Part shown: piece after piece, positions 21,535-49,280 of the stretch | How positions within the stretch are numbered: position 1 is the first letter of the stretch | How the letters are laid out: each line of letters opens with the position of its first letter | NCBI RefSeq assembly: GCF_022009635.1 | Contig: NZ_CP091716.1 | Span: 3,301,001-3,365,000 of the forward strand | DNA from: Variovorax paradoxus | GTDB lineage: Bacteria; Pseudomonadota; Gammaproteobacteria; Burkholderiales; Burkholderiaceae_C | Length of the DNA: 64,000 nt | Direction of reading: 5' to 3' | The notes under the pieces: generated by a model | The model's input: the letters and a program-made list of their open reading frames with translations, nothing else | What the model was told of the DNA's origin: nothing | Database searches by the model: none | Made by a program: the position numbers and the translations under genes

Positions 21535-21648
21535 GCATGTGTCGCTGACGGTCGTCAGCACCATGCCCTGGCAGCCCCGGTCTTCAAGGCTGCAACGCGG
21601 TTCGCCGCGTTGACCGATCCAGTCCGCTTCGCACCGACCACCGCGGAC
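21535..21648 (+). ncRNA. Repeated structured element, copy A
   Basis: Four consecutive hairpins: P1 GCTGAC/GTCAGC (21544-21559), P2 GCAGCC/GGCTGC (21571-21593, loop containing TCTTCAA), P3 AACGCGG/CCGCGTT with TTCG loop (21594-21611), P4 GTCCGC/GCGGAC (21622-21648). Between P1 and P2 is the conserved word CCATGCCCTGG. Ends 103 bp upstream of the 83-aa gene. Stems covary with copies B-E, supporting a folded RNA. Confidence 0.7.
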
Positions 21649-21751
21649 GCGCGTCGTCACGACGCCGGTGCTTTTGATGTTCAACCCTTCGGGAGGTATC
21701 CGCTCCCGACAGGGCGTGGTGCTCCCGGTCTTCAACCACCAGGAGAAACCC

Positions 21752-22003
21752 ATGTCCCTTGCGTTCGCATCGGCGCCGCTGAGCGTCGAACAGGCCCGCG
21801 CCGAGTCCATCGGCTACCAGGCCCTGGCCTACGTCGGCAAGCGCCTGCCCCTGCAGGTGCTGTGCAGCGCGGCCGGCCACTACATCGGCACCGCCGATGC
21901 GGACGGCCCGGTCTCGCGCGAGTCGGTCAGCTACTTCCGCTCGCACCACGCCGCCGAGCACGCCCTGCAAACGGGCCGCTGGCAGCAGCGCCTCAACCCG
22001 TGA
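21752..22003 (+). CDS. Small conserved ICE protein of unknown function
   Basis: 83 aa from ATG 21752 with AGGAG upstream. No domain recognised. Visible features are SVEQARAESIGYQALAYVG, KRLPLQVLCSAAGHYIGTAD and a C-terminal His/Ala segment; likely a small alpha/beta protein. Preceded by structured element A and a leader with inverted words (GGGAGGTATCCGCTCCC). Codon use matches the neighbours. Function unknown. Confidence 0.65.
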   Translation: MSLAFASAPLSVEQARAESIGYQALAYVGKRLPLQVLCSAAGHYIGTADADGPVSRESVSYFRSHHAAEHALQTGRWQQRLNP

Positions 22004-22028
22004 TGTCCAACCACCAGGAGCCCATGTC

Positions 22029-22421
22029 ATGAACCGTGCCCTGCCTCAAGAGGTACTTGATCAGATCGAGCTGGAACACCAGCACTTCACCGCCGCGCCC
22101 CAAGCCTTCTTCGAGGCGTGGAAACGCGGCGTCCATATCGCCGGGGCCGAATGGTTCGGCGACGGCACCCGCGAAGGCCTGCAGCGTGCCACCACCAAGT
22201 GGGATCTGCGGCCGAAGCTGCTGATGCTCAATGACGCCCTCGGTGTCCTGAGCAGCGGCCAGCGGATGTTCCTGTCCGCGATGGTGAGCTTCTACAACGC
22301 CCGCGAGGGCGGCGCGATGCTCAAGCGTTGCGGCTTCGAGGGTCTGTCCGATTTGGGCGGCCTCGACCTGGAGCGGCGCAAGGTCATTGCCGACCTGACG
22401 CTGAACTACAACGGCTGGTGA
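22029..22421 (+). CDS. Conserved ICE protein of unknown function
   Basis: 130 aa from ATG 22029, 25 bp after the previous gene, so probably co-transcribed. Predicted helical and cytosolic. Recognisable stretch: HQHFTAAPQAFFEAWKRGVH and LSSGQRMFLSAMVSFYN, ending in LTLNYNGW. No motif known to me. The last helix region (GGAMLKRCGFEGLSDLGGLD) has a helix-hairpin-helix flavour but is not convincing. Confidence 0.65.
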   Translation: MNRALPQEVLDQIELEHQHFTAAPQAFFEAWKRGVHIAGAEWFGDGTREGLQRATTKWDLRPKLLMLNDALGVLSSGQRMFLSAMVSFYNAREGGAMLKRCGFEGLSDLGGLDLERRKVIADLTLNYNGW

Positions 22422-22466
22422 GCCGCACTGCGGTCTGCCGACGTTCCTCTTTTCTTCCTACCCCAC

Positions 22467-22510
22467 GAGGGACATGCGTCCCTGCATGGGGGCATGTCCC
22501 TCCTTTTCTT
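22467..22510 (+). promoter_or_regulatory. Leader hairpin/attenuator before 22525 gene
   Basis: A 10-bp perfect outer stem GAGGGACATG/CATGTCCCTC (22467-22476, 22493-22502) encloses CGTCCCTGCATGGGGG and is followed by CTTTTCTT, then RBS AAAGGAG. Looks like a terminator/attenuator placed right before the RBS. Confidence 0.55.
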
Positions 22511-22524
22511 GAAAGGAGCGATTC

Positions 22525-22989
22525 ATGTCCCCTGGCATTTCCATCGATCTGCTCGTGACCGACGACGACATCGATGCGGTCATCCTTGAAGGCTGGCCGG
22601 CAGACATGCGCAAGCCGCGCACGGTGGTGTTCGACTACGCCGGCCACGGTGTCCCCGACGAGAACGTGCTGCGCATCGGCACCGGAGCGCCGAACGCCGG
22701 ATTGACCGGCCGAGAGGTGTTCCCGGTCGAGTACGGACGCGACTGCCGCTACCCGTCGCCGGCCGAGATTCTTTCGGCACTCGATGCACGCAGGCCGGCC
22801 GAGAAACCCTCTGCGCTGAGCATCGCCCGCGACGTGCGCCAGAGCATCCTCGACCTGGATGCGCGGCTTGACCGCCTGGAGCAAGCACCGACCGGCGATG
22901 ACTACAACCGCCTGTACCAGCTTGCGAATGGCGGCCTGACCGACCTGTTGAAGGCGCTGGGCGACCCGTCCTCGGCTGCCGCCGGCTGA
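22525..22989 (+). CDS. Conserved ICE protein of unknown function
   Basis: 154 aa from ATG 22525 (RBS AAAGGAG). N-terminal half is acidic (LLVTDDDIDAVILEGWPADM) with a beta-rich middle. A predicted coiled coil, VRQSILDLDARLDRLEQ, lies near residues 103-125. No family recognised. Monocistronic unit with its own leader hairpin. Confidence 0.6.
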   Translation: MSPGISIDLLVTDDDIDAVILEGWPADMRKPRTVVFDYAGHGVPDENVLRIGTGAPNAGLTGREVFPVEYGRDCRYPSPAEILSALDARRPAEKPSALSIARDVRQSILDLDARLDRLEQAPTGDDYNRLYQLANGGLTDLLKALGDPSSAAAG

Positions 22990-23011
22990 CCGGCTGCCAC
23001 TTCATCCACCC

Positions 23012-23031
23012 GCTGGGGTTCAATCCCCAGC
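23012..23031 (+). promoter_or_regulatory. Leader hairpin before 23070 gene
   Basis: Stem GCTGGGG/CCCCAGC with loop TTCAAT, 39 bp before the start codon, after the word TTCATCCACCC that recurs in other leaders of this region. CAGGGGATTG that follows could form an alternative pairing with CAATCCCC. Confidence 0.5.
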
Positions 23032-23069
23032 AGGGGATTGCCTCGGCCATCCTCTGCTGGAGAAATCCC

Positions 23070-23786
23070 ATGTCCTACTCAAACAACAATCCCTTTGTCC
23101 GCGGTTACGACGGCCTGTCCGTCCAGCGGCTGCTCGCCGTCTCCTACGACGACGACTGCCCGCTGACATACTTGCCGCTGCACCCCTCGCAGTCGCATTT
23201 GCCGGACAGCCAGGTCGAGCGGCGTGCCTGCGTCTTCTCGGACGACTTCATGCTGATCACCGAGGACCAGGCGGTCCCCGACGAACTGCAGGCGATCTGC
23301 CCCAGCCACGGACTGGTCCGCAACGTCGTTTATGCCGTATTGGCCCAGGAAGAAGGCAAGCCGCTGCACGTGGGTGACACCTACTCCGAGGAAGCGGCCC
23401 GCGAAGTCGTGCGGCGCCTGCGCTATGAAACCGGCTTCTACAGCCGGTGCTGGGAGATCAGCAGCGCGCATCTCGACGCCGACGCGCATCGCTTCCTCGC
23501 CGAGCTGGCGGACATCGCCACGCCGACGCTGTTCCTGTTCGTCGCCTTCCGCATCCCGTACAGCCCGGCCATCGGGTTGAAGCTGATCGCCACGCCCTGG
23601 ACCGACGAGAACCTGCGCGCGGTCGAAGGCATCACGGTCAAGCGGCTGATGCAGGAGCACCGCAAGAAGGGCATGCCTGAATCCCTGTTGCACGTGCTGC
23701 ACCTGGCCGCGCTCGCCGACGTGCGCATGCTGGTATTCGATGCCGATGCGCCGGTGCTGGACGGACTGCCGATCTACGACGAGTAA
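23070..23786 (+). CDS. Conserved ICE protein of unknown function
   Basis: 238 aa from ATG 23070. Alpha/beta protein without signal peptide or membrane segment. Conserved-looking parts are NNPFVRGYDGLSVQRLLAVS, RRLRYETGFYSRCWEISSAH and VLHLAALADVRMLVFDADA. No catalytic motif that I can name. Own leader hairpin upstream and terminator downstream (23797), so a stand-alone transcription unit. Confidence 0.65.
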   Translation: MSYSNNNPFVRGYDGLSVQRLLAVSYDDDCPLTYLPLHPSQSHLPDSQVERRACVFSDDFMLITEDQAVPDELQAICPSHGLVRNVVYAVLAQEEGKPLHVGDTYSEEAAREVVRRLRYETGFYSRCWEISSAHLDADAHRFLAELADIATPTLFLFVAFRIPYSPAIGLKLIATPWTDENLRAVEGITVKRLMQEHRKKGMPESLLHVLHLAALADVRMLVFDADAPVLDGLPIYDE

Positions 23787-23796
23787 CGCCACCTTT

Positions 23797-23822
23797 CGAG
23801 CCCCCGCGCGGGGCTCGTTTCA
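23797..23822 (+). terminator. Rho-independent terminator
   Basis: Eight-bp stem CGAGCCCC/GGGGCTCG, loop CGCGC, followed by TTTCATTT. Ten bp after the stop of the preceding gene. Confidence 0.75.
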
Positions 23823-23896
23823 TTTGCGGACGAAGCCGGTGGCGGCGCAATGCCGATTTCCGCGCGACGCTGGCCTTGAGCGTGATGCACGCTGCT

Positions 23897-23973
23897 CGCA
23901 TGTTCGCTGGCGTTGCCGGCAAGCATGCCCAGGCAGTTGAGACCTTCGAGGCTGCGGCGCGGTTCGCCGTGCT
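23897..23973 (+). ncRNA. Repeated structured element, copy B
   Basis: P1 GCTGGC/GCCGGC (23906-23920), word AAGCATGCCCAGG, P2 GCAG/CTGC extended by two G-U pairs around GAGACCTTCGAG, P3 GCGCGG/CCGTGC with TTCG loop (23957-23972). The fourth hairpin is not evident in this copy. 108 bp upstream of the 265-aa gene. Confidence 0.65.
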
Positions 23974-24021
23974 GGTTGTTTTTCCTTCCCGGGCGCATGT
24001 CGCGTCCATTCACCTCACCTC

Positions 24022-24041
24022 CAAGGGACATGCCTCCCTTG
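24022..24041 (+). promoter_or_regulatory. Leader hairpin before 24081 gene
   Basis: Stem CAAGGGA/TCCCTTG with the CATG word in the loop (GGGACATGCCTCCC), the same start (GGGACATG) as the leader at 22467. Lies 40 bp before the start codon. Confidence 0.5.
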
Positions 24042-24080
24042 TGGGCGGAAGTTTCTTGGATTGCCACAAGGAGCTTCCCA

Positions 24081-24878
24081 ATGGATACCCAAGCCATCCG
24101 CGCACAGATGCCGACGCTGGTTCGCGGCCACGTGCCCTCCAACGTCCGCAGCTTCAAGTTCAACATCTTCGATGGTCAGCCCAAGGTTTCGACGCTGGGC
24201 TTCCACATCGATCCCAAGCCCTTCGAGGGCAAGGTCATCGCCACCACCGACGAGGCCATCGTCGTCAAGACGGGGTGGGCCGAGTTCGCGGTGCTCGACA
24301 AGGCGCTCGTCACCAACGTGCCCGATGAAGGCGCCAAGGTGCAGGTCGAACCATATGCGCGACGCCGCTTCGACGGCCTGCGCGCGGACACGCCCGAGGA
24401 GAGCACCGAGTTCACCGCCGACGGCCAGCCCTACACGGTGAAGCGACTGATCCTGGGTTCGGCGCCGGCCAAGCTGCCGATCGCCGAGCCGCAGTGCCCC
24501 GAGTTGCAGGAGCTGGTCCACCAACTGGAGCAGTTGCCCGCGCCCGATGGTTTCCGGCGCATCACGCACCTGCTGGTGGATGCCGGCGCGCGGGACTTCA
24601 CGGTGGTCGATCCGAGCCCCAGCAACATCATCGCCACGCCGCCGGCCATCGGCTTCACCGTCGCCTCGGCGAAGTTCCAGGGGCGCGTCACCGTGCTCTA
24701 CGAACGCGGCTTAGACACCTACGCGGTGGAACTTCACCACGACGGCGAGTTGGTGGAGCGGGTCGATGAAGTGTTCTTCGACACCTTGGGCCAGGTGCTG
24801 GAGCGGCTGATCGACGACGGGAGCTGGCGCCTCATCCGCGTGCAGCGCCTGTCCGGTCGCAAGCCCGTCCAGCACTGA
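24081..24878 (+). CDS. Conserved ICE protein of unknown function
   Basis: 265 aa from ATG 24081 with ACAAGGAG upstream. The N-terminal 110 residues look like a beta-barrel/KOW-like small domain (VIATTDEAIVVKTGWAEFAV); the C-terminal half is alpha/beta (FTVASAKFQGRVTVLYERGL, VEFFDTLGQVLERLIDDGSW-like end). No family recognised. Preceded by structured element B and a leader hairpin, followed by a terminator. Confidence 0.65.
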   Translation: MDTQAIRAQMPTLVRGHVPSNVRSFKFNIFDGQPKVSTLGFHIDPKPFEGKVIATTDEAIVVKTGWAEFAVLDKALVTNVPDEGAKVQVEPYARRRFDGLRADTPEESTEFTADGQPYTVKRLILGSAPAKLPIAEPQCPELQELVHQLEQLPAPDGFRRITHLLVDAGARDFTVVDPSPSNIIATPPAIGFTVASAKFQGRVTVLYERGLDTYAVELHHDGELVERVDEVFFDTLGQVLERLIDDGSWRLIRVQRLSGRKPVQH

Positions 24879-24896
24879 GCCCCTGCGTCCCCAAGC

Positions 24897-24932
24897 GGCT
24901 TCCCGTCCTCGCGGCGGGAAGCCTTCTTCCTT
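24897..24932 (+). terminator. Rho-independent terminator
   Basis: Nine-bp stem GGCTTCCCG/CGGGAAGCC followed by TTCTTCCTT, 18 bp after the stop. Confidence 0.75.
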
Positions 24933-24954
24933 ACCTCCGTTGGAGATCACTTCC

Positions 24955-25321
24955 ATGACTGTTCGATTCAAAGGCACCCAGCTTCGGCCCGTGCTCGCCG
25001 AGGCAGCGGCCAACCAGTGCCGCGTCATCCTGGTCAAGGACCAGGGCGTGTATTTCATGGCCGAGCGTGGCGAGAGCCGGCCCGATGGGCGGCGCAAGAC
25101 CATGGCCTACGCCGTGGGCTGCAACCCCGACGTCGATGCGTTCGACGACTGGTGGGAACTGGCGCGCGCCGAGTTCGGCGGCGACGACTTCGGCGAGTTC
25201 TTCGACCTTGCAGGAACGGGTGTTCGCCCACATCCTGCACAGCGAGGACGACCTCGAAGTGTCGGCCACGGCCACGCATCTGTCGATGCAGCCCATGCCC
25301 GCTGCGCCGGCCGGTCACTGA
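24955..25321 (+). pseudogene. DUF3085 gene with a one-base frameshift
   Basis: Starts at ATG 24955 (RBS TTGGAG). Codons to about 25207 give a DUF3085-like protein (VRFKGTQLRPVLAEAAANQC, VILVKDQGVYFM, GGDDFGEFFDL). Continuation (LQERVFAHILHSEDDLEVS and on to the stop at 25321) is in the +1 frame. GACCTTGCAG at 25205-25212 reads as GACCTGCAG with one extra T. Restored, the protein is about 121 aa, normal for the family. Without repair the frame runs on with no homology for 200 codons. It is either a true mutation, a sequencing error or, less likely, programmed shifting. A terminator follows at 25336. Confidence 0.8.
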
Positions 25322-25335
25322 TCGTCCTGCTTCCC

Positions 25336-25360
25336 AGCCCCCTCACAGGGGCTTCTCTTT
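25336..25360 (+). terminator. Rho-independent terminator
   Basis: Stem AGCCCC/GGGGCT, loop CTCACA, then TCTCTTTATTT. Fifteen bp after the restored DUF3085 stop. Confidence 0.7.
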
Positions 25361-25364
25361 ATTT

Positions 25365-25766
25365 GGTGGCGCGGCTCAGGGCCGCATCTCACGCGCTCGT
25401 CTCCAGCCCGACTCGGGCCGCTCACGCCGGCACGGTACCAAGCCGGCGCATCATCGGCGTGGTGATCGTGGGCTGCCCGGTGGCGCGGAACCTCGATGAC
25501 GGCTGGACGCTCGAAGTTACCCGGCTGTGCACCGATGGCACGGCCAACGCCTGCAGCAAGCTCTACGCGGGCCGCCTGCCGCGCGGCACGCGCGTTGGGC
25601 TACACGCGCCTCATCACCTACACGCTGCCGGCCGCGGGCGGCGCCAGCCTGCGGGTGGCCGGCTGGCGCCTGGTCGGACGGTGGCAACTGGAACCGAGCG
25701 CGCCGGCCGCGCCAGGACACCCCCGAGGCGCTGCGCGTGCCCAAGCTGGTGTGGGAGGCGCCGTAG
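25365..25766 (+). pseudogene. XF1762-like protein (GNAT-like), frameshifted remnant
   Basis: Pieces of one small protein are spread over three frames. LRAAS near 25375 may be the N-terminus. RIIGVVIVGCPVARNLDDGW then TLEVTRLCTDGTANACSKLY lies at about 25445-25566 (frame 1). AARALGYTRLITYTLPAAGG then ASLRVAGWRLVG follows in frame 2, and GGNWNRARRPRQ to KLVWEAP, stop 25764-25766, in frame 3. These are in the order of the XF1762 family known from phages and ICEs. At least two frameshifts (near 25568 and 25680), and the part between the N-terminus and RIIGVV is also disrupted. Not expected to be functional. Confidence 0.75.
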
Positions 25767-25853
25767 CGGCGAGGCCTGGCGCTTGCTGCCAATGCGGACA
25801 GCCGCCGGTGCCGATTGCCGCTCGCGCGCGTGCCGGCGTAGCGCCACGCTTGG

Positions 25854-25968
25854 CCCATGTTCCGCTGACTTCGGTCAGCAGCATGCCCGGGCAGTCTCGA
25901 TCTTCAAGACTGCGACGCGGTTCCGACCGCGTTGATCAACCAGTTCGCTCCGGCATCCCTGCGCGAAC
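25854..25968 (+). ncRNA. Repeated structured element, copy C (upstream of DUF3577 gene)
   Basis: Begins CCCATGTTC. P1 GCTGAC/GTCAGC with TTCG loop, then AGCATGCCCGGG, P2 GCAGTC/GACTGC around GATCTTCAA, P3 ACGCGG/CCGCGT, P4 GTTCGC/GCGAAC (25943-25948, 25963-25968) with loop word GCATCCCT shared with copy E. Located 120 bp before the DUF3577 gene. A published RNA motif is named for DUF3577 genes (from memory); this is a candidate member. Confidence 0.75.
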
Positions 25969-26020
25969 GGCCATCGGTTCTCCCGATGGTGATGCCACCC
26001 AAGCTGTTCCTTCAACCCAT

Positions 26021-26066
26021 GCGGGGGTTCCACACCTTCCCCGCCTTGGGTCGGGTGTGTCTCCGC
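26021..26066 (+). promoter_or_regulatory. Leader hairpin before the DUF3577 gene
   Basis: Two-part stem GCGG...CACACC/GGTGTG...CCGC (26021-26024, 26031-26036, 26054-26059, 26063-26066), enclosing CCCCGCC. Ends 24 bp before the start codon. Confidence 0.5.
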
Positions 26067-26090
26067 CTCTTTGTTCTCAGGAGATTCACC

Positions 26091-26645
26091 ATGACCACTT
26101 CCACCGACAAGTCCTACTTCGACCTGCACATCACCGGACTCGGGTATCTCAATCGCATCCGCGAAGTGAAGCCCAAGAAAGGCGATGCGTTCCTGGCCTG
26201 CGACATCGCGGCGCTCAACGGCCCCAGCGATGACGTTGCCTACGTGCGTTTCGACACGCGCGTCTCGGGCTCCGAAGCGCAACACCTGGTGCGCCGCTGC
26301 ATCCAAGCGGTCGATGCCGAAAAGAAAGTGATGATCGGCTTCCGCCTGGGCGACCTGTGGACCGACACCTTCACCTACTCCAAGGGCAAGCGTGCCGGCG
26401 AGCAGGGGGTGAGCCTCAAGGCCCGCCTGCTGTTCGTCAGTTGGATCAAGGTCGACGGCAAGCTCGTCTACAAGGCCGAGCCCAAGCCGACCGACGCCGA
26501 CGACCGCGACACGCGCAACACGGATGTCCCCGCGACTTCCGCCGAGCCGCAAGCCGCTGCGTCCGAGCCTGCCAGGCACGCCGCCGAAGCTGCCGATGAA
26601 GCCACTGCCGATGCCCCCGCATTGGAAGTTGCCGAGTCGTTCTGA
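26091..26645 (+). CDS. STY4534-family ICE replication protein (DUF3577)
   Basis: 184 aa from ATG 26091 with CAGGAG upstream; upstream in-frame codons belong to the leader. Conserved core: YFDLHITGLGYLNRIREVKP, GDAFLACDIAALNGPSDDVA, FDTRVSGSEAQHLVRRC, MIGFRLGDLWTDTFTY, LLFVSWIKVDGKLVY; this looks like an OB-fold ssDNA-binding protein. A 50-residue acidic Ala-rich tail follows. Grouped by homology to SPI-7 STY4534 with replication functions. Preceded by RNA-like element C and followed by a terminator. Confidence 0.85.
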   Translation: MTTSTDKSYFDLHITGLGYLNRIREVKPKKGDAFLACDIAALNGPSDDVAYVRFDTRVSGSEAQHLVRRCIQAVDAEKKVMIGFRLGDLWTDTFTYSKGKRAGEQGVSLKARLLFVSWIKVDGKLVYKAEPKPTDADDRDTRNTDVPATSAEPQAAASEPARHAAEAADEATADAPALEVAESF

Positions 26646-26649
26646 TCCG

Positions 26650-26684
26650 CAAGGCCCCGCTCCCTGGGGCCTTGTCTTCTTCCC
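26650..26684 (+). terminator. Rho-independent terminator
   Basis: Nine-bp stem CAAGGCCCC/GGGGCCTTG (26650-26658, 26666-26674) followed by TCTTCTTCC, 5 bp after the DUF3577 stop. Confidence 0.8.
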
Positions 26685-26757
26685 ACTCGCGTGCGCATGC
26701 GCGCCGTCGCCATGACGGCCGTGTGCGTGATCGCAGCTTCGTCCGCAGGAGTTCTTC

Positions 26758-27387
26758 ATGATCAACATTCCCGGCCAACTGGCCATCAAGACCATCCACG
26801 GCCGCAACGGCGACTTCAACGTCGGCCGCCTCGCGACCTCCATCGGCGAGTTCGTCGTGAAGAACGCCGAACTCGACCAGTACGCCGAAGGCAAGTACGA
26901 GGGCGATTTCGCCATCGCGGAGATTCGCCCGTCCACGTACACCGCCAACGGCCGCATGGTCATCGAGATCCGCGCCCTCTTGGGCGGGATGACCTTGTCC
27001 AACATCGATGCCCTGAGCCGCGACGACGCCCGCCGGCTGAGTCCGCAGGAAGTCGATCCAATCGACGAGGAAGCGCAGACCGCCACGCCGACGCCGACGA
27101 CCGCCCCCAAGGCGGCCGGCCGGAAGAAGGCACGCAGTTCGCGCGACCCGCTGGTCGATACCACGCCGTTCGGCAGCGAACCGGCTGCTGCGTCTGCCGA
27201 AGCTTCGGCCCATGCCGAAGACGACGGCGACGCGGTGCTGTTCGGTGCGCTCTGGCCGCTGGGCGATGTCGTCAAGCTCGATGCCACCGTGGATCGGCGC
27301 GTGCTGCGTCAGCAGCGCGACCGCCTCGGCGACCTGGGCTACGAGTTCGCTCCGCTGTCCCAGGACTGGCATCTCGCCAGGGTCTGA
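26758..27387 (+). CDS. DUF3275 family ICE protein
   Basis: 209 aa from ATG 26758 (RBS GCAGGAG). Family signature: PGQLAIKTIHGRNGDFNVGR, IGEFVVKNAELDQYAEGKYE, GDFAIAEIRPSTYTANGRMV. The middle is a Thr/Pro/Lys-rich linker and the C-terminal 50 residues (LFGALWPLGDVVKLDATVDR) form a second small domain. Cytosolic. Function unknown; conserved next to DUF3577 in this ICE class. Confidence 0.85.
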   Translation: MINIPGQLAIKTIHGRNGDFNVGRLATSIGEFVVKNAELDQYAEGKYEGDFAIAEIRPSTYTANGRMVIEIRALLGGMTLSNIDALSRDDARRLSPQEVDPIDEEAQTATPTPTTAPKAAGRKKARSSRDPLVDTTPFGSEPAAASAEASAHAEDDGDAVLFGALWPLGDVVKLDATVDRRVLRQQRDRLGDLGYEFAPLSQDWHLARV

Positions 27388-27427
27388 TCCGACCGCCGTA
27401 CCTCGCCGCGTTCTGCGGCTTTCACCA

Positions 27428-27453
27428 CCCGCCGGGGTTCCTTCCCCGGCGGG
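27428..27453 (+). promoter_or_regulatory. Leader hairpin before 27487 gene
   Basis: Ten-bp perfect stem CCCGCCGGGG/CCCCGGCGGG with loop TTCCTT, after TTCACCA. Same plan as the leader at 23012. May also end the DUF3275 transcript, but no T-run follows. Confidence 0.55.
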
Positions 27454-27486
27454 AGGACTCCGGCCCTTTCTCACAGGAGTCATTCC

Positions 27487-27879
27487 ATGGGCTGGACATT
27501 CGTTCGTTTGACGCGCGATCAGTTGATCCGCGAGCTGACCGCAACAGAGGAAACCGAGCGGTCGCGCAATGAGGTCATCGACCACACGCTGGTCGGCAAC
27601 GTGCTGTGGACGGTGGTGCGTGTCACCGCCAAGCAGGCCGGCGTCCTGGGTCTCGCACCCGGAGAGTCGGCCACCTTGATCGGCTGCCATCTGCTGGAAA
27701 GCGAAGGCCGCGAGTGGGGCTACAAGTCCCTGGTCGAGGCCGAGCACCCGTACTACTACTCGTGCCCGCTGCGCTATCTCGACATGGCGCCGCAGCGGTG
27801 CGCCACCTGGCGCGCACTGGTGCATGCCTTCCACCAGCAGCGACCGACCAGCGCGGGCGGCGATGCAGCCACCGAGTGA
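27487..27879 (+). CDS. Conserved ICE protein of unknown function
   Basis: 130 aa from ATG 27487. Begins MGWTFVRLTRDQLIREL and contains HTLVGNVLWTVVRVT and EWGYKSLVEAEHPYYYSCPL; the plan (MGWTF start, GYK, CP..YLD end) resembles a widespread small family sometimes listed as DUF6927, not certain. Beta-rich, cytosolic. Seven bp before the next gene, likely co-transcribed with it. Confidence 0.65.
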   Translation: MGWTFVRLTRDQLIRELTATEETERSRNEVIDHTLVGNVLWTVVRVTAKQAGVLGLAPGESATLIGCHLLESEGREWGYKSLVEAEHPYYYSCPLRYLDMAPQRCATWRALVHAFHQQRPTSAGGDAATE

Positions 27880-27886
27880 GGCGCAC

Positions 27887-28153
27887 ATGGACACCATCCT
27901 GTCGTCCTTGCCGCCCGAGCTGCTTCGCTTCGTCGAAGACCAGTTGGCCAACAACGAGGCTTCCGACGACGAGCTGCACGAGCACTTCATCGCCAACGGC
28001 CTGGGCGAAGATCAGGCGTGGCAGGCACTGACCTACCGCGCGCTGTACCTGCGCCACGTCTTCCTCGAAGGCTTCACGCCGATCCTCAAAGGTCACGAGG
28101 CGCTGTGCTTCGACCCGCACAGCCGCGGCTGGGAGCCGGTTCCGCCCCCATAG
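27887..28153 (+). CDS. Small conserved ICE protein of unknown function
   Basis: 88 aa from ATG 27887 (GAGGCGCAC upstream). Acidic helical protein: LPPELLRFVEDQLANNEASD then DELHEHFIANGLGEDQA, ending DPHSRGWEPVPPP. No domain recognised. Pairs with the gene 7 bp upstream; a terminator follows at 28195. Confidence 0.6.
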   Translation: MDTILSSLPPELLRFVEDQLANNEASDDELHEHFIANGLGEDQAWQALTYRALYLRHVFLEGFTPILKGHEALCFDPHSRGWEPVPPP

Positions 28154-28194
28154 GCCGGCCCTTCCACGGCCCGCTTCTTCATTCCTTTCACCAG

Positions 28195-29336: not shown

Positions 29337-29448
29337 GTGGCGGTCCTTCCGCCTTCCGCCATTGCAGGCGATGCGCCAAGGCAAACAGGGTTGCGCGCCG
29401 GGTCGGTTTTCCGCTCCTGCTGTCTGCGCAATTTGGCGCAGGCTATGG

Positions 29449-29523
29449 CCCATGTCCGTCGGCGCTGCCGACAACATGCCCAGGTAGCCCAGACCTTCAA
29501 GGCTACGGTGCGTTGCGACGCAC
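29449..29523 (+). ncRNA. Repeated structured element, copy D
   Basis: Begins CCCATGTCC. P1 GTCGGC/GCCGAC (29458-29472), then AACATGCCCAGG, P2 GTAGCC/GGCTAC (29484-29506) around AGACCTTCAA, P3 GTGCGT/ACGCAC (29508-29523). Every stem differs from copies A-C yet keeps pairing. 106 bp upstream of the 29629 gene, after the strong terminator. Confidence 0.7.
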
Positions 29524-29628
29524 GGTCTGATTCTTCGCCACGACGCTCACCGCGTTTTCTTCCATCCCCCTGGGGCAGTGACTGCCCTCGCGGGCGGTGC
29601 TGTCTCCGCTCACTTCGAGGGCATCACC

Positions 29629-30285
29629 ATGCCTGCACCTTCTTCCTCCAAGACGCTCTATCGCATCGACGAATGCCCCGACCTGATGGCCGATGGCTGC
29701 GTCGGTGACGAGAACGGCAACCTGGTCTTCATCTCTGTCTGGGCGCGCGACACCGCCGTCCAGGAATTTCTGGCCCGCATCACCCTGGGCCGGGACGAAC
29801 AGGGACTGGATCAGTTCCACGTCATCACCGAGCAGGGCGCGAGCATCCCGGTCTTCGTCGGCAACGCCGAGAACCTGGAAAAGCGCAGCGCGCGCGCCTA
29901 TCGGCGCACGCTGTTCGGCTCGCTGACCAACATCTGGCTGTTCGATCGGCGCTGCGTCAAGCCCGACAAGGCCAACGCCAGCGCGCTGGCGCTCCTGCCT
30001 CGCGATTCCTCTCACCGGCTCGAACGGCTGTGGAAGCTGGTGCGGGATACCTGCCCGCTGCCGCTTCTCGATCCCTGGCGCGATGTCGTGCTGGACCTGC
30101 TGCAGGCGAAGTCGATGCTGACGCGCCTGCCGCTTGCCCTCGGGCCTCTGGAAGGCCATCGGCTCGCCATCGACGTGCCCGTGCTGACCCAGGTGCTGGG
30201 CGGCCTGATCCGCAGCGGGGCGCTCGTCGCCGACACGCCCGCCAGCCGCATCCTCTCGGCACGACCGCTCGAAGCGGTGGCTTGA
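29629..30285 (+). CDS. Conserved ICE protein of unknown function
   Basis: 218 aa from ATG 29629. Alpha/beta N-terminal half (LYRIDECPDLMADGCVGDEN, LVFISVWARDTAVQEFLARI) and helical C-terminal half (RLERLWKLVRDTCPLPLLDP). No signal peptide, membrane segment or motif that I can name. Preceded by RNA-like element D. Confidence 0.65.
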   Translation: MPAPSSSKTLYRIDECPDLMADGCVGDENGNLVFISVWARDTAVQEFLARITLGRDEQGLDQFHVITEQGASIPVFVGNAENLEKRSARAYRRTLFGSLTNIWLFDRRCVKPDKANASALALLPRDSSHRLERLWKLVRDTCPLPLLDPWRDVVLDLLQAKSMLTRLPLALGPLEGHRLAIDVPVLTQVLGGLIRSGALVADTPASRILSARPLEAVA

Positions 30286-40468: not shown

Positions 40469-40581
40469 CCGCATCGGCCTTCGCCGCGGAAAGCGGTGGT
40501 TGGCCGGTTCCGATTGATTGCGGCGCCGGAAGACTGGCCGTTTGAGCATCGAGCCATCCGCATCCCTCGGAGAACGGCTCG

Positions 40582-42730: not shown

Positions 42731-43656
42731 AGCCCTTCGTGATGCGCCCGTTCGCTGCGGCCCTGGCCGGCCTGCTGCTGTGCCTGGCCCTCGTGCCTGC
42801 GGCCCATGCCATCGAAATCCTGCGCTGGGAGCGGCTGCCGCTCGCGGTGCCGCTGGTGGTCGGCCAGGAGCGCGTGGTGTTCATCGAGCGCAACGTCCGC
42901 ATCGGCGTGCCGGCAGGCGTCGGCGAGCAGTTGCGCGTGCAGAGCGCCGGTGGGGCGATCTACCTGCGCGCCAATGCGCCGATCGCGCCCACGCGACTGC
43001 AACTGCAGGACGTGGAGTCGGGCGCGCTGATCCTGCTGGACATCGCGGCCGAGCCGGCGAAGGCGGGCCAGCCTGCGCTCGAACCAGTTCGCATCGTCGA
43101 GAGCGATGTACCGACCACCCGCTACGGCGAGCCGGCCAAGCCGGCTGCGACGACGGACGACGATGCGCAGCGCACAGCAGTCACTGCGAAGCGCGCCACG
43201 CCGGTGGCCGTCGTGCTCACGCGCTATGCGGCGCAGAACCTCTATGCGCCGCTGCGCACCGTGGAACCTGTCCCCGGCATCGGCCGCGTCAACCTGCGGC
43301 GCACTCTGGAGCTTTCGACCTTGCTGCCCACGCTGCCGGTGCGTGCGCAGGCGCTGGCCGCATGGCGGCTCGAAGACCAGTGGGTGACGGCCGTGAAGCT
43401 CACCAACACCTCCGGTCGCTGGCTCGACCTGGACCCACGCGCATTGCAGGGCGACTTCCTCGCCGCGACCTTCCAGCACCCGAACCTGGCGCCGGCCGGA
43501 CGCGCCGCCGACATGACGGTGGTCTACCTCGTTACCCGTGGCCACGGCCTGGCCGAGTCGCTGCTGCCCAAGCTCTCACCGATCGACGCGACGGTGAACC
43601 TGCCGCCGGCAGCGGCGGCCGGCCAGGCCGAAGGAGGTGCCCGCCATGAAAAGTAA
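42727..43656 (+). CDS. TIGR03749 family ICE protein (PFL_4704), TraK/VirB9-like
   Basis: 309 aa from ATG 42727. Signal peptide 1-28 (ends AHAIE). Beta-rich secretin-like periplasmic protein: LRWERLPLAVPLVVGQERVV, with a Thr/Ala/Lys linker near 145. Likely outer-membrane core partner of the VirB10-like protein encoded next (inference). Overlaps the next gene by 11 bp. Confidence 0.84.
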   Translation: MKPFVMRPFAAALAGLLLCLALVPAAHAIEILRWERLPLAVPLVVGQERVVFIERNVRIGVPAGVGEQLRVQSAGGAIYLRANAPIAPTRLQLQDVESGALILLDIAAEPAKAGQPALEPVRIVESDVPTTRYGEPAKPAATTDDDAQRTAVTAKRATPVAVVLTRYAAQNLYAPLRTVEPVPGIGRVNLRRTLELSTLLPTLPVRAQALAAWRLEDQWVTAVKLTNTSGRWLDLDPRALQGDFLAATFQHPNLAPAGRAADMTVVYLVTRGHGLAESLLPKLSPIDATVNLPPAAAAGQAEGGARHEK

Positions 43657-45115
43657 CCCCCTCCTCAAATGGCTGCTGATCCCGATGGCGCTGGTGCTGC
43701 TGTTCGTCGGCATCAAGCTGTTCTCCGGTGATCGTGGCGCCAAGCCCGCGCCCGCCAGCGCCGCCAACTCGCTCACGCCCGAGGAGATGAAGGCGCTGGG
43801 CATCGAGGGCGACACGCCGCGCGATACCGTCGCGACGCTGGTGGCCCAGGTCAAGCAGTTGCGCAACGAGCTGCAGACGGCGCTCAACGACAACAAGAAC
43901 CAGAAGACCGAGAACGAGCGCATGCGCGCGCGGGAAAGCGCGATCGACCAACGCATCCAGTCCGCGCTGGACGGCGAGCGTGGCCGCCTACAGCAGGACC
44001 GCGAGCAACTCTCCAGCGACCGCCAGCAGACCCAGGGCCTGCTGCAAGACCTGCAGCGGCGCCTGGATGGCCTCTCCGGCAAAGGCGGCCAGGCCGACCT
44101 TCCGGTGGGCCTCGGTCTGGAAGAAGGCGACGGCAAGGGCTTCGGCGGCACCCAGGGGGGTGCCGCGCGCAGCGCCAATGGCACGCGCTGGGTGGAGCCC
44201 GACGACGCGAAGCCCTCGGCGAAGAACGGCGGCAGCGGTGGCCTGAACTTCCCGACGAGCTTCGGGCCGGCGCAGAAGACGCTCTCCGACACGGCCGACA
44301 GCGTGGCAAGCACCGTGGCGGACGCCGGCAGCCGCACCGTGGGCGCGTCGGCCAAGCCGGTCTACACGGTGCCGTCGAACTCGACGCTGATGGGCTCGAT
44401 CGCGATGACCGCGCTGATCGGCCGCGTGCCGATCGACGGCACGGTCAATGACCCGTATCCGTTCAAGGTGCTGATTGGGCCGGACAACCTGACCGCCAAC
44501 GGCATCGACATTCCCGACGTGGCCGGTGCGGTGGTCAGCGGCACGGCCTCCGGCGATTGGACGCTTTCCTGCGTGCGCGGCCAGATTCGCTCGGTGACGT
44601 TCGTCTTCAACGACGGGACGGTGCGCACCATGCCGGAGGACGGCAACCGGAACCAGAACGGCAGCGGGTCGGGCAGCAGCGCCAACAGCACCACGCACGG
44701 CGGCCTGGGCTGGATCAGCGACCCCTACGGCATTCCTTGCGTCAGCGGTGAACGGCGCAGCAACGCGCAGCAGTACCTGGGCTCGCAGGCCCTCATCACG
44801 GCGGCTGGGGCCGGCGCGGCGTCACTGATCAAGTCGGACAACGGCAGCGTGGCCGTGGTCGCCAACAACAACGGCTCGCTCGGCACGGTGGGTATCAGCG
44901 GCAACGAGGCGATGGGCCGCATCTTGGCCGGTGGCGTGCGCGACATGGCTGATTGGGTCAACAAGCTCTACGGCCAGGCCTTCGCCGCGGTCTACGTGCG
45001 CCCCGGCGCCAAGGTCGCCGTGCACCTGGAGCAGCCGCTCAACATCGACTACGACGCTAAGGGGCGTCGGGTCAATCACCGCATCGGAGGCAAGCATGCG
45101 TCGGATTTGGATTGA
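43646..45115 (+). CDS. TIGR03752 family ICE protein (PFL_4705), TraB/VirB10-like
   Basis: 489 aa from ATG 43646 (RBS AAGGAGG ends at 43637; the GTG there overlaps the RBS and is not used). An N-terminal membrane anchor (8-24), a coiled coil (about 55-145) and a C-terminal beta-barrel domain follow (VPSNSTLMGSIAMTALIGRV, VYVRPGAKVAVHLEQPLNID), as in TraB. Spans the envelope and links inner and outer membrane parts. Overlaps the next gene by 20 bp. Confidence 0.86.
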   Translation: MKSNPLLKWLLIPMALVLLFVGIKLFSGDRGAKPAPASAANSLTPEEMKALGIEGDTPRDTVATLVAQVKQLRNELQTALNDNKNQKTENERMRARESAIDQRIQSALDGERGRLQQDREQLSSDRQQTQGLLQDLQRRLDGLSGKGGQADLPVGLGLEEGDGKGFGGTQGGAARSANGTRWVEPDDAKPSAKNGGSGGLNFPTSFGPAQKTLSDTADSVASTVADAGSRTVGASAKPVYTVPSNSTLMGSIAMTALIGRVPIDGTVNDPYPFKVLIGPDNLTANGIDIPDVAGAVVSGTASGDWTLSCVRGQIRSVTFVFNDGTVRTMPEDGNRNQNGSGSGSSANSTTHGGLGWISDPYGIPCVSGERRSNAQQYLGSQALITAAGAGAASLIKSDNGSVAVVANNNGSLGTVGISGNEAMGRILAGGVRDMADWVNKLYGQAFAAVYVRPGAKVAVHLEQPLNIDYDAKGRRVNHRIGGKHASDLD

Positions 45116-45530
45116 ATCGGTCGCGGTCCTGTGCGCGGTCGGAGTGCTGGGCGGCTGCGCCACTAGCAAGGACAAGCTGCTACCGCACGGCGATTACACG
45201 ATGCTCGATGTGTGGACCCAGGAGACGGGCGGCAGCGCCGGTGGCGGACAAGCTGCCCGGCAACTGCTCGACGCGCGCCAGGACCTGCGCCGGGCGCTGA
45301 GCGAGGCCGATACGCAGGCAGCGCCTGCCGCCGCTGCCGCCTACACGCGCACCGCGGCCAACGAGATCTACCGCCAGTTCCACCGACTGCCGAACCCGGA
45401 CCTGGTGATGTACGTGTTCCCGCACCTGGCCGGCAGCGATCCGGTGCCCGTGCCCGGCTACACCACCGTCTTTCCCTTGTACCAGCGGGTGCAGTACGCC
45501 ATGCCTGGCGAGCGCCTGGAGGACTACTGA
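45096..45530 (+). CDS. TIGR03751 family conjugal transfer lipoprotein
   Basis: 144 aa from ATG 45096, RBS CGGAGG. Lipobox LGGC (C21). Conserved ending LPNPDLVMYVFPHLAGSDPV with PGYTTVFPLYQRVQYAMPGE. Probably a TraV-like outer-membrane lipoprotein. Stop TGA shares its A with the next ATG. Confidence 0.86.
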   Translation: MRRIWIESVAVLCAVGVLGGCATSKDKLLPHGDYTMLDVWTQETGGSAGGGQAARQLLDARQDLRRALSEADTQAAPAAAAAYTRTAANEIYRQFHRLPNPDLVMYVFPHLAGSDPVPVPGYTTVFPLYQRVQYAMPGERLEDY

Positions 45531-48436
45531 TGGCCTGGACCTTGCCCTGGCCGCGCAAGGCCCTCGCATTGGCTGGCTCTGACCCGCAGGGCGAGGATGC
45601 CTGGTCGCGGCACGTGACGACGCTCGCAGCGCACGGCATCCCGGAGCCAGGCAAAGCAGCAGCCGACCGGCCGCGTCGTCCGGCCACCGAGGCGGATATG
45701 CAGGCCCTCTATGGCGTGTCACCGTCCTTCGCCGATCTGCTCCCGTGGGTGGAGTATCTGCCGGGTTCCAAGAGCATGCTGCTGGAAGACGGCCAGTCGG
45801 TCGCGGGCTTCTTCGAGCTGGCGCCGGTGGGCACCGAGGGCCGCGAGATGGCCTGGCTGTGGCAGGCACGCGATGCGTTGGAGAACGCGCTGCAGGACTC
45901 TTTCGACGAACTCGACGAGAACCCCTGGGTGGTGCAGCTCTATGCCCAGGACGAATCGACCTGGGACAACTACCTGCGCGGGCTGGCGGACTATGTGAGG
46001 CCGCGCGCCCAGGGCAGTGCCTTCACGGACTTCTACCTGCGGTTCTTCGGGCATCACCTGCGCGCCATCTCCAAGCCCGGCGGGCTGTTCGAGGACACGA
46101 CGGTGACGCGCCTGCCGTGGCGCGGCCAGGTCCGGCGTGTGCGCATGGTGGTCTACCGGCGCGCGAACGCGGCGACCGCATCGCGGCGCGGCCAGTCGCC
46201 CGAGCAGGCGCTGACGACGATCTGCGACCGGCTCGCCGGGGGTCTCGCCAATGCGGGCGTGAAGTCCCGCCGCATGGCGGCGGCCGACATCCACGACTGG
46301 CTGCTGCGCTGGTTCAACCCACACCCGACGCCGCTCGGCCCCAGCGCCGACGACCGCGAGCGCTTCTATGCGCTCACGCGCTATCCCGAGGAAGCCGAAG
46401 ACGGCGAAATCGAGCTGGAGATGGAGCTTGCAAGTGGCGACTTCGCGCAGCGCCTGTTCTTCGGCCAGCCGCGCTCGGACGTGGCGAACGGCACCTGGCT
46501 CTTCGACGGCATGCCGCACCGGGTCATCGTGATGGACCGGCTGCGCATGCCGCCCGCCACCGGCCATGTCACCGGCGAGACTCGCAAGGGCGGCGATGCG
46601 GTCAATGCGCTGTTCGACCAGATGCCCGAGGACACGGTGATGTGCCTGACGGTCGTCGCGACGCCGCAGGACGTGCTCGAAGCGCACCTGAACCACCTGA
46701 GCAAGAAGTCGGTCGGCGAGACGCTCGCCTCGGAGCAGACGCGCCGCGACGTGCAAGAAGCGCGTGGTCTGATCGGTAGCGCGCACAAGCTCTACCGCGG
46801 TGCGCTGGCCTTCTACCTGCGCGGGCGCGACCTCGCGCAGCTCGACGCCCGCGGCCTGCAACTGGTCAACGTGATGCTCAACGCGGGCCTGCAGCCCGTG
46901 CGCGAGGAGGACGAGGTGGCGCCGCTCAACAGCTACCTGCGCTCGCTTCCCTGCGTGTTCGATCCAGCCTCCGACAAGCGCCAGTGGTACACGCAACTGA
47001 TGTTCGCGCAGCATGCCGCGAACCTCGCGCCGGTGTGGGGCCGTAGCCAGGGCACGGGGCATCCGGGCATCACGTTCTTCAACCGTGGCGGCGGGCCGAT
47101 CACCTTCGATCCGCTGAACCGACTCGACCGGCAGATGAACGCGCATCTCTTCCTGTTCGGCCCCACCGGCTCGGGCAAGAGCGCGACGCTCAACAACATC
47201 CTCAACCAGGTCACGGCGATCTACCGGCCGCGCCTGTTCATCGTGGAGGCCGGCAACAGCTTCGGCTTGTTCGGCGACTTCGCCACGCGGCTGGGCCTCA
47301 AGGTGCATCGCGTGAAGCTCGCGCCCGGCGCAGGCGTCAGCCTCGCGCCATTTGCGGATGCGCACCGGCTGGTCGATACGCCGAGCCAGGTGCAGACGCT
47401 GGATGCCGATGCGCTGGACGAGGACCAGGAGCCCGCAGCGCAGGCGGCAAGCCGCAGTGAGGAAGTGGACGAGCAGCGCGACGTGCTCGGCGAACTGGAG
47501 ATCACCGCGCGGCTGATGATCACCGGCGGCGAGGACAAGGAAGAAGCGCGCATGACGCGTGCCGACCGCAGCCTGATCCGCCAGTGCATCCTCGACGCCG
47601 CCCAGCGTTGCGTGGCCGAACGGCGCACGGCGCTGACGCGGGACGTGCGCGATGCGCTGCGCGAGCGCGCCCGCGACACGTCGCTGCCCGAGGGGCGACG
47701 CGCGCGGCTGCTGGAGATGGCGGACGCGATGGATATGTTCTGCCAGGGCGTGGACGGCGAGATGTTCGACCGGCCCGGCACGCCGTGGCCCGAGGCCGAC
47801 ATCACCATCGTGGACCTCGCCACCTTCGCGCGCGAGGGCTACAACGCGCAGCTTTCCATCGCCTACATCTCGCTGATCAACACGGTCAACAACATCGCCG
47901 AGCGCGATCAATTCCTGGGCCGCCCGATCATCAACGTGACGGACGAAGGCCACATCATCACGAAGAATCCGCTGCTCGCGCCCTACGTCGTGAAGATCAC
48001 GAAGATGTGGCGCAAGCTCGGCGCCTGGTACTGGCTGGCGACGCAGAACATCGACGACCTGCCCAAGGCCGCCGAGCCCATGTTGAACATGATCGAGTGG
48101 TGGATCTGCCTGTCGATGCCACCGGACGAGGTGGAGAAGATCGCGCGCTTCCGCGAGCTGAATCCGGCACAGAAGGCGCTGATGCTGTCGGCCCGCAAAG
48201 AGGCGGGCAAGTTCACCGAGGGCGTGATCCTCTCCAAGAGCATGGAAGTGCTGTTCCGCGCGGTGCCGCCCAGCCTCTACCTGGCACTGGCTCAGACCGA
48301 GCCGGAAGAGAAGGCGGAACGCTTTCAGTTGATGCAGCAGTACGGCATCGGCGAGCTGGATGCCGCTTTCAGGATCGCCGAGAAGATCGATCGCGCCCGC
48401 GGCATCGCGTCGCTGGCGCTCGATGCGCTGGCGTGA
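45530..48436 (+). CDS. Conjugative transfer ATPase (TIGR03744; VirB4/TraC-like)
   Basis: 968 aa from ATG 45530. Walker A GPTGSGKSAT (near 543-552) and Walker B IINVTDEGHII (near 799). The N-terminal half holds the TraC-like domain (LPWVEYLPGSKSMLLEDGQS, SKPGGLFEDT). Energises pilus assembly and secretion at the inner membrane. Longest gene of the operon; 11 bp before the Dsb-like gene. Confidence 0.93.
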   Translation: MAWTLPWPRKALALAGSDPQGEDAWSRHVTTLAAHGIPEPGKAAADRPRRPATEADMQALYGVSPSFADLLPWVEYLPGSKSMLLEDGQSVAGFFELAPVGTEGREMAWLWQARDALENALQDSFDELDENPWVVQLYAQDESTWDNYLRGLADYVRPRAQGSAFTDFYLRFFGHHLRAISKPGGLFEDTTVTRLPWRGQVRRVRMVVYRRANAATASRRGQSPEQALTTICDRLAGGLANAGVKSRRMAAADIHDWLLRWFNPHPTPLGPSADDRERFYALTRYPEEAEDGEIELEMELASGDFAQRLFFGQPRSDVANGTWLFDGMPHRVIVMDRLRMPPATGHVTGETRKGGDAVNALFDQMPEDTVMCLTVVATPQDVLEAHLNHLSKKSVGETLASEQTRRDVQEARGLIGSAHKLYRGALAFYLRGRDLAQLDARGLQLVNVMLNAGLQPVREEDEVAPLNSYLRSLPCVFDPASDKRQWYTQLMFAQHAANLAPVWGRSQGTGHPGITFFNRGGGPITFDPLNRLDRQMNAHLFLFGPTGSGKSATLNNILNQVTAIYRPRLFIVEAGNSFGLFGDFATRLGLKVHRVKLAPGAGVSLAPFADAHRLVDTPSQVQTLDADALDEDQEPAAQAASRSEEVDEQRDVLGELEITARLMITGGEDKEEARMTRADRSLIRQCILDAAQRCVAERRTALTRDVRDALRERARDTSLPEGRRARLLEMADAMDMFCQGVDGEMFDRPGTPWPEADITIVDLATFAREGYNAQLSIAYISLINTVNNIAERDQFLGRPIINVTDEGHIITKNPLLAPYVVKITKMWRKLGAWYWLATQNIDDLPKAAEPMLNMIEWWICLSMPPDEVEKIARFRELNPAQKALMLSARKEAGKFTEGVILSKSMEVLFRAVPPSLYLALAQTEPEEKAERFQLMQQYGIGELDAAFRIAEKIDRARGIASLALDALA

Positions 48437-48447
48437 GGGAGAACACC

Positions 48448-49203
48448 ATGCAGGTCGCTCGCTTCATTCCATCCCGCTCCGTCGCATTGGTCGCTGTGCT
48501 GCTCGTCGTCGCGCTGATCGCGGCGGCCTGGCTCGGCACGCAGCCGCAGGCGCCGATCGCCAAAGACGCTTCGACGTCGGCCGAGTTCAACCCGACGCCC
48601 ACGCCGGCGCCCACATCCACGGCCGGCCCGCCTTGGCGCTATGGCCGCGACGATGCACGCTTTACGGTGGTGGAGTACGCCGACCTCGAATGTCCGTTCT
48701 GCCGGGCGTACTTCGCAGTGCTCAAGCAGTGGATCGATGCTCACCCCGAGGTGAACTGGCAGTGGCACCACCTGCCGCTGACGACGCACGAGCCGGCCGC
48801 GACTGCCAACGCGCGCCTGGTCGAATGCGTCGGCGAGGCTGGCGGCCGAGCCGCGTTCTGGCAAGCAGTCGAATGGGTCTACGCGCACACGCGCGGCGAC
48901 GGCCAGGGCCTCCCCGAGGATCTAGGTTATCCCGGCATCACGCAGGCCGCCCAGCAGTGCCTCGACAGCGACCACCCCGACGCGCTGATTCGCGCGCAGT
49001 CGGCGAGCGCGGCGCAGGAGGGCATCAAGGTCACGCCCACGCTGCGCCTGCAGGACCGCCAGTCCGGCAAGACGCTGGTGCTGCATGGCCCGGTCGAAGG
49101 CGATGCGCTGTTGTCGGCCATCGACCTGCTGGCAGCCGGCGGCACCACCGAGACCGCATCGAAGGAAATGCCTGCCGAGTCTCTCGGCGACATGCCCAGG
49201 TAG
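48448..49203 (+). CDS. DsbA-like thiol oxidoreductase
   Basis: 251 aa from ATG 48448 (GAGGGAGAAC). Membrane anchor or signal 10-30, then Pro/Thr linker, then a thioredoxin fold with CPFC (C82, C85) in YADLECPFCRAYF, and cis-Pro region VTPTLRL. Forms disulfides in secreted transfer proteins such as TraU-like proteins rich in Cys. The last codons overlap RNA-like element E: the stop TAG lies in its second stem. Confidence 0.87.
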   Translation: MQVARFIPSRSVALVAVLLVVALIAAAWLGTQPQAPIAKDASTSAEFNPTPTPAPTSTAGPPWRYGRDDARFTVVEYADLECPFCRAYFAVLKQWIDAHPEVNWQWHHLPLTTHEPAATANARLVECVGEAGGRAAFWQAVEWVYAHTRGDGQGLPEDLGYPGITQAAQQCLDSDHPDALIRAQSASAAQEGIKVTPTLRLQDRQSGKTLVLHGPVEGDALLSAIDLLAAGGTTETASKEMPAESLGDMPR

Positions 49204-49280
49204 CCCCCGATCTTCAAGGGCTACGACGCGGCCCTGGCCGCGCTGATCATCCCGTTCGCCTTGCATCCCTCGACGCGAAC
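49174..49280 (+). ncRNA. Repeated structured element, copy E (overlaps the stop of the Dsb-like gene)
   Basis: P1 GCCGAG/CTCGGC (49174-49188), then GACATGCCCAGG, P2 GTAGCCC/GGGCTAC (49200-49224) around CGATCTTCAA, P3 CGCGGC/GCCGCG (49227-49242), P4 GTTCGC/GCGAAC (49254-49280) with loop word GCATCCCT. The clearest copy. 119 bp before the 49399 gene. Confidence 0.75.

Follow-up and report, generated by a model that had tools for sequence, protein, structure and literature searches.

radC RNAs ahead of genes of an ICEclc-type element

The window, a stretch of 64,000 nucleotides from Variovorax paradoxus (contig NZ_CP091716.1, positions 3,301,001 to 3,365,000), carries, judged from its gene content, an ICE of the ICEclc type. 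Domain scans recovered ParA-like, BisC-type DUF2857, STY4528, AcaB, DUF3158 and TopB proteins, and further STY4534/DUF3577, DUF3275 and DUF932 proteins, T4SS genes and a MobH/TraI_2 relaxase. At 57806-59488 an AbiJ N-terminal domain 3 protein is encoded, likely a phage-defence function that the ICE carries as cargo. A probable efflux cargo (3524-10365) comprises HlyD-type and outer-membrane efflux genes on either side of a large gene, with a LysR regulator next, at 9469. The activator-like genes, the five RNA elements and the genes that they lead are as follows.

13000..14871, +: probable BisD homolog, assigned from its ICEclc match (64% identity) just ahead of the bisC counterpart; no Pfam match
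14771..15445, +: BisC homolog (DUF2857), tblastn match in ICEclc at 77% identity
21526..21671, +: radC RNA copy A, full type (P1-P3, PKa, P4, P6, PKb), RF01754 at 124.0 bits and own model R1; ICEclc counterpart, the copy before ORF88400
21752..22003, +: gene led by A, 83 aa, no Pfam or NCBIfam match
23889..24048, +: radC RNA copy B, short type without the P4/PKb domain, RF01754 at 90.0 bits; ICEclc counterpart, the copy before ORF84835
24081..24878, +: gene led by B, 265 aa, no Pfam or NCBIfam match
25846..25995, +: radC RNA copy C, full type, RF01754 at 124.5 bits; ICEclc counterpart, the copy before ORF81655
26091..26645, +: gene led by C, DUF3577 / STY4534 family ICE replication protein by domain scan
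29441..29595, +: radC RNA copy D, short type, RF01754 at 85.3 bits; a counterpart was sought in ICEclc and none was found
29629..30285, +: gene led by D, 218 aa, no Pfam or NCBIfam match
49157..49306, +: radC RNA copy E, full type, within the T4SS operon, RF01754 at 106.9 bits; positional ICEclc counterpart, the copy before ORF58432
49399..49977, +: gene led by E, 192 aa, no Pfam or NCBIfam match

All five elements were recognised in an Rfam search of the window as RF01754, the radC RNA, with 85.3-124.5 bits against a curated cut-off of 40, and chance is excluded by E-values of 2.2e-23 to 1.8e-14. Exactly five matches exceeded the curated cut-offs in the window, all to RF01754 and all on the + strand, while a permissive search (E<=1) added two weak matches to other families, both below their own cut-offs. 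A preliminary description of this DNA had placed five + strand copies here, and the Rfam matches confirm them, with P1, the RCATGCCC word, P2 and its loop, P3 and, in A, C and E, P4 all present. Its gaps of 103-120 bp to the led genes proved close, as its coordinates in fact give 103-122 bp to the start codons at 21752, 24081, 26091, 29629 and 49399. It had further taken the elements to be probably a DUF3577 RNA motif, a family reportedly described in a 2017 paper. This identity was not supported, the copies matching radC RNA instead and no family of that name (looked for by name) appearing at E<=1; that one copy, C, precedes a DUF3577/STY4534 gene was borne out by the domain scan.

For comparison we turned to a genome (G829) in which the same trio of radC elements occurs twice, 342.7 kb apart. 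The ICE in this genome is bounded by a repeat with a spacing of 102,775 bp, and its quoted ORF ends fall 1 to 12 bp off the published AJ617740 numbers; from this we infer that it is ICEclc of P. knackmussii B13. Five radC RNAs are present there, ahead of ORFs 89247, 88400, 84835, 81655 and 58432, and the transfer-competence regulon of ICEclc resembles the window in gene order and homologs. The two are not identical in their radC copies, as neither D of the window nor the ICEclc copy before 89247 has a counterpart in the other. An Rfam sX8 match (locus L182, 6665-6746) overlaps the attachment-site repeat of ICEclc.

Related loci were collected with the DUF3275 protein as query against species genomes; of 142 loci, the best 80 were kept. 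Our own model, R1, gave 221 matches in the window, six ICEclc stretches and these 80 loci, all 221 on the strand of the gene and in a presumed 5' UTR position, as predicted leaders. In 216 cases the gene downstream is homologous to one of those led by the five window copies (C 76, A 56, B 52, D 31 and E 1, the last count being low because the loci rarely reach E), and the remaining five precede none of them. Such placement does not agree with a DNA transposable repeat, the explanation that the preliminary description had named as refuting its view, and supports its suggestion of a regulon-like signal, on the gene strand and repeated ahead of several operons in one ICE.

No sixth copy was found in the 7.95-Mb genome (2 contigs; 150 of 1273 first-look candidates scored). 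In a sample of the class, radC matches occurred in 2/369 genomes, the window's own among them, and in the family sample in 17/299, again including its own, with at least three to at least nine copies each. A sample from the family of a Pseudomonas locus gave matches in 133/398 genomes, many with at least one copy. The copy numbers in these larger samplings are lower bounds, as stricter filters lost weak matches and at most 7 to 9 candidates were scored per genome. Phage records yielded no radC match, and nine plasmid records held partial ones. The family as such is already known, being listed in a table of Weinberg et al. 2010; its promoter placement and the mechanism proposed below are new from this analysis, and neither that placement nor a link to ICEclc was found in the literature searched.

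Fold and leader context of the elements

Consensus pairing of P1, P2 and P3 is present in the window copies, as seen in the cmscan alignments and by covariation in relatives. For the latter, a sequence-only MAFFT alignment of 63 radC relatives (61 distinct rows, redundancy-reduced from 100) was generated, onto which P0/P1, P2, P3, P4, P6 and two crossing helices, PKa and PKb, were written. Paired cells amount to 94.6% versus 86.7% in shuffles, and 286 cells are changed on both sides versus 83, levels that none of 500 shuffles reached in either measure; two-sided change was seen in 34 of the 47 pairs. Sliding the partners by 1 to 3 columns lowered pairing to 24-45%, a comparison that favours the written structure because it was derived from one row of the alignment. 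In PKa, the P2 loop (CGATC or CGGTC) pairs with the bases directly after P3 (GATCG or GACCG) in 91% of cells, with a central pair that is A-U in 29 rows and G-C in 28, and an outermost pair that fails in 21. P4 is paired in 94%, and PKb, formed by GCATCC of the P4 loop and GGATGC of the element's end, in 89%. The P4/PKb domain is missing from copies B and D and from other rows of the short type. Thus, in 61 distinct relatives the pairing covaries strongly, both pseudoknots included, in agreement with the earlier view of the copies as a covarying RNA.

The window copies share sequence and structure with RF01754, as well as occurrence in Proteobacteria and position in gene leaders. They differ from it in that the cmscan consensus line is unpaired at the P2-loop and P4-loop pseudoknots found here. 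Since the CaCoFold paper had counted radC/RF01754 among families with covarying pairs that are absent from the database structure, PKa and PKb are not claimed as first reports.

The strand on which the fold is maintained can also be assessed. G-U cells number 162 in the sense strand versus 45 A-C cells, an excess that is smaller without one column pair, which alone contributes 50 G-U cells. These data bear on the idea that the conserved entity is DNA, working through operator palindromes, a cruciform or a single-strand promoter; the palindromic stems adjoin a promoter box (see below) and would suit such a role. Covariation of stems and pseudoknots, the sense-strand G-U excess and the occurrence of copy E without a box all argue for RNA, however, and we hold a DNA-level element to be scarcely credible.

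Next, the leaders were considered. The element may be a binding site for an ICE or host protein or a small RNA, tuning translation or attenuating transcription of the first gene, and its repeated, regulon-like placement would be congruent with that. So would features of class B leaders, where the ribosome site is folded into a hairpin (as occluded in 0/100 and 3/100 shuffles for the window, 24034-24081, and its ICEclc counterpart), and where P3 has a T-rich tail behind it and counts as terminator-like both in the window and in ICEclc; the leader of C adds a weak 5-pair terminator-like match at 26053. On the other hand, general occlusion of the ribosome site was rejected, being significant in class B and not in A, C, D or E. 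Moreover, the terminator-like matches that leaders or their vicinity contain are weak and confined to some classes, and the median gap to the start codon differs by class from 43 to 94 nt. The copies have no common expression platform of the kind looked for in a riboswitch, and a bound regulator of the first gene is in our view unlikely. The class B ribosome-site hairpin may represent a separate translational control.

The same lack of a platform weighs against a metabolite riboswitch, as does the absence of a metabolic theme among the led genes, which serve mobile-element functions. The conserved loops and pseudoknots would be in line with one, and the radC row in the table of Weinberg et al. 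2010 ends in a question mark, which we took to concern riboswitch status; even so, we consider this reading very improbable.

Promoter boxes and predicted transcript starts

A two-part box ending in YCGNTT lies upstream of copies A to D, at a distance of 35-38 bp, with transcription starts predicted from the distance seen at PinR of ICEclc.

21471..21496, +: promoter box upstream of A; predicted start ~21536-21538
23833..23858, +: promoter box upstream of B; predicted start ~23900
25791..25816, +: promoter box upstream of C; predicted start ~25858
29383..29408, +: promoter box upstream of D; predicted start ~29450
40490..40515, +: the box again, with no radC RNA, heading the T4SS stretch that holds E, from the box scan

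Two further occurrences in the window appear chance-like (3800, +, and 9225, -), and no box was found upstream of copy E. The box at 40490-40515 may be a late promoter of the other kind, without radC RNA. Across 87 nonredundant elements of classes A to D, YCGNTT stands 35-38 bp ahead of the element in 44 (25 at 35 bp, 12 at 36 bp), compared with 4/87 in a control interval of nine positions, and 41/87 have the two-part form, in which AA precedes by about 20 bp, versus 0/87 in the control. The strict word is missing in about half of the elements, mostly those of classes C (present in 17/37) and D (5/18). At PinR in ICEclc a box of this kind lies 47 nt ahead of the inrR start mapped by RACE, a start given as 96,204 in Table 1 of Gaillard et al. 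2010 and as about 96,030 by our own conversion of the text and its -10/-35 letters there, the text being used here. With this distance, the starts of A to D are predicted near model positions 11-14, at the CATG of P1, and four radC copies would thus apparently stand at the very start of late-gene messages.

BisDC activates Pint, PinR and PalpA in ICEclc, where BisC carries DUF2857, and the homolog at 14771..15445 is presumed to be part of the activator of the box promoters in the window; from these relations we infer that BisDC acts on the YCGNTT box. In Pseudomonadaceae genomes, at 20 picked places, TTGAC lies 24-30 bp upstream in 18 of 23 elements (16 of 21 once near copies were removed) against a background of 0.02 per element, and several of the elements have CATGCT or similar at their first bases. 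Loci L190-L194, L197 and L198 hold a radC class in which TTGACC and TATAA-like words mostly lie immediately upstream, and in L193 and L197 a gene for a DUF3987 protein follows about 540 nt downstream. In L199 (2093-3792), which is not of this ICE family, the gene led by a radC RNA is small, and an antirestriction gene of the ArdC type comes next.

The accessible parts of the two ICEclc papers (Gaillard et al. 2010; Sulser et al. 2022) describe transcripts and a 27-bp promoter motif, and no leader RNA. We considered whether this motif could be radC itself and rejected it, as it is also assigned to alpA, inrR, 67231, traI and intB13, where no radC RNA was found. In an EM search, the inrR instance of the recovered motif ends 152 bp before the mapped start, as in the figure legend of the paper, and the 88400 instance ends 16 bp before radC; this solution is one of six, not the top-scoring one, and was chosen by its 152-bp match. 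The two-part box at inrR is a second site, 112 bp nearer the start than the EM motif. Box and published motif thereby agree at 88400, and not plainly at inrR, and at P58432 the paper assigns the 27-bp motif where our analysis found no box.

The published transcript data can be set beside these predictions. According to Gaillard et al. 2010, transcripts start with 88400, 84835, 81655 and 58432, with log2 stationary/exponential ratios of 4.0 to 6.5, so that four of the five radC-led ORFs of ICEclc begin mapped transcripts; 89247 lies inside a transcript that begins with 89746. The RNA is predicted to lie close to the 5' end of multi-gene transcripts, from the spacing of the boxes and from the ICEclc transcripts, which begin with the led gene in four of five cases. 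The predicted start of ORF81655, about 223 bp before the start codon taken here, is near a weak primer-extension end reported about 250 bp ahead of this ORF. Sulser et al. 2022 report promoter activity for 88400, 81655 and, weakly, 58432. For 84835 and 89247 they describe jumps in coverage but no promoter activity, as they do for 73676, a place at which we found no radC RNA. RNA and reporter levels disagree for 81655 in the same study. The inactivity of the fragments upstream of 84835 and 89247 argues against the leader model, although the authors allow that the fragments were possibly too small.

Terminator-like hairpins and a proposed role in antitermination

Three terminator-like hairpins from the hairpin scan directly follow genes led by radC RNA.

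24897..24923, +: 11-pair terminator-like hairpin following the B-led gene
26650..26674, +: conserved terminator-like hairpin between the DUF3577 and DUF3275 genes
49983..50002, +: conserved terminator-like hairpin right after the E-led gene

Between 21000 and 31500 of the window, 11 terminator-like sites fall on the + strand and none on the - strand, versus 1.2 per strand in shuffles, and the adjoining stretches are near the shuffle level; counting overlapping forms apart, the scan tool gave 17 sites versus 5.8 expected. Seven of the 11 sense sites are intergenic, two lie in elements, one in a box and one in a gene. By unit, the window has 11 sense and 1 antisense sites in A, B, C and E, 1 and 0 from D to E, and 2 and 1 in 10700-21510. 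The radC-led units of ICEclc hold 14 sense sites, some of them inside genes, and 2 antisense in 28.2 kb, compared with 1 sense and 3 antisense in 22.7 kb of units without radC.

The hairpin after the E-led gene is present in 11/12 nonredundant loci, and that in the DUF3577-DUF3275 gap in 25/44 distinct gaps under a strict rule, or 31/43 with longer loops permitted. In 14 of these 31 gaps at most 45 nt separate the end of the stem from the next start codon, a space in which a promoter would hardly fit. Table 1 of Gaillard et al. 2010 places the corresponding ICEclc junctions within RT-PCR linked transcripts. Terminator-like hairpins in the led operons thus stand after the first gene in classes B (15/30 first junctions), C and E, and none was found at the first junction after A (0/22) or D (0/29).

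The apparent placement of four copies at the start of late-gene messages suggests that radC RNA controls how these messages are read. We tentatively propose that it is a cis-acting 5'-leader RNA of the late (transfer-competence) operons, most likely serving antitermination, a proposal that draws support from the identity, fold and sense strand of the elements, the spacing of the promoter boxes and the conserved terminator-like hairpins. For copies A to D, an activator box, presumably used by an FlhDC-like BisDC complex, would act together with a weak -10 (CAnnCT), and transcription would begin at the first pairs of stem P1, so that the folded RNA would form the 5' end of the message. Copy E, which has no box, would be met by RNA polymerase already travelling in the T4SS operon. 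Once folded, radC RNA would most likely act on the elongating polymerase as a processive antitermination signal, and the polymerase so modified would pass the terminator-like hairpins behind the radC-led genes. The sense-strand hairpins, the conserved hairpins after E and between DUF3577 and DUF3275, and the little room left for promoters are what favour antitermination.

The put RNA of phage HK022 and the EAR RNA of Bacillus are antitermination RNAs. radC would resemble them as a structured RNA in or near the leader of operons with intrinsic terminators, and would differ in being repeated per operon.

Several observations weigh against antitermination, the empty first junctions after A and D among them. 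Counted over 36 nonredundant 3-kb radC loci, sense terminators are equally frequent on either side (0.92 per 1.5 kb upstream, 0.97 downstream), and outside the ICE family no strand bias was found downstream (12 sense and 12 antisense in 18 nonredundant loci, kept from 19 of the 23 Pseudomonadaceae elements that were given), while upstream of the same 18 elements there are 17 sense and 3 antisense terminators. Units without radC may simply have shorter intergenic gaps, gene spacing being a confounder, and RT-PCR and Northern results can reflect leaky terminators. In Gaillard et al. 2010, RACE failed upstream of 58432, 81655 and 88400, and also at 66202, 73676 and 89746, of which 66202 and 73676 have no radC RNA. 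Furthermore, no NusG paralog was seen among the window proteins scanned.

A serious rival, although on balance an improbable one, is transcript protection or processing, where the folded 5' end, arising by a start at P1 (A to D) or by cleavage (E), shields late messages from decay. Congruent with it, the counterpart of E is a transcript start in the table of Gaillard et al. 2010, yet there is no depletion of RNA-seq reads before ORF58432, and the coverage jumps at 84835 and 89247 were tentatively ascribed to processing by Sulser et al. 2022. Protection alone leaves the terminator-like hairpins after the B-, C- and E-led genes unexplained, however, and processing was suspected in ICEclc at 73676-74436 too, where no radC RNA was found.

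If antitermination by radC is correct, the ICE may close its late genes with terminators that are read through only by a polymerase that has just made radC RNA, one fold serving as a shared key for the transfer programme of conjugative elements, an extension that we offer with still more reserve than the leader function itself. The RNA has been listed since 2010, and no functional study of it was found in the open-licence literature searched, which is weak evidence of absence. The link to the tractable ICEclc, with predicted starts, two pseudoknots and defined terminator junctions, makes the function of radC directly testable. Were antitermination true, some of the unexplained coverage jumps in ICEclc might gain a cause, and an RNA key to late gene expression would be common to the ICEs of this widespread family.
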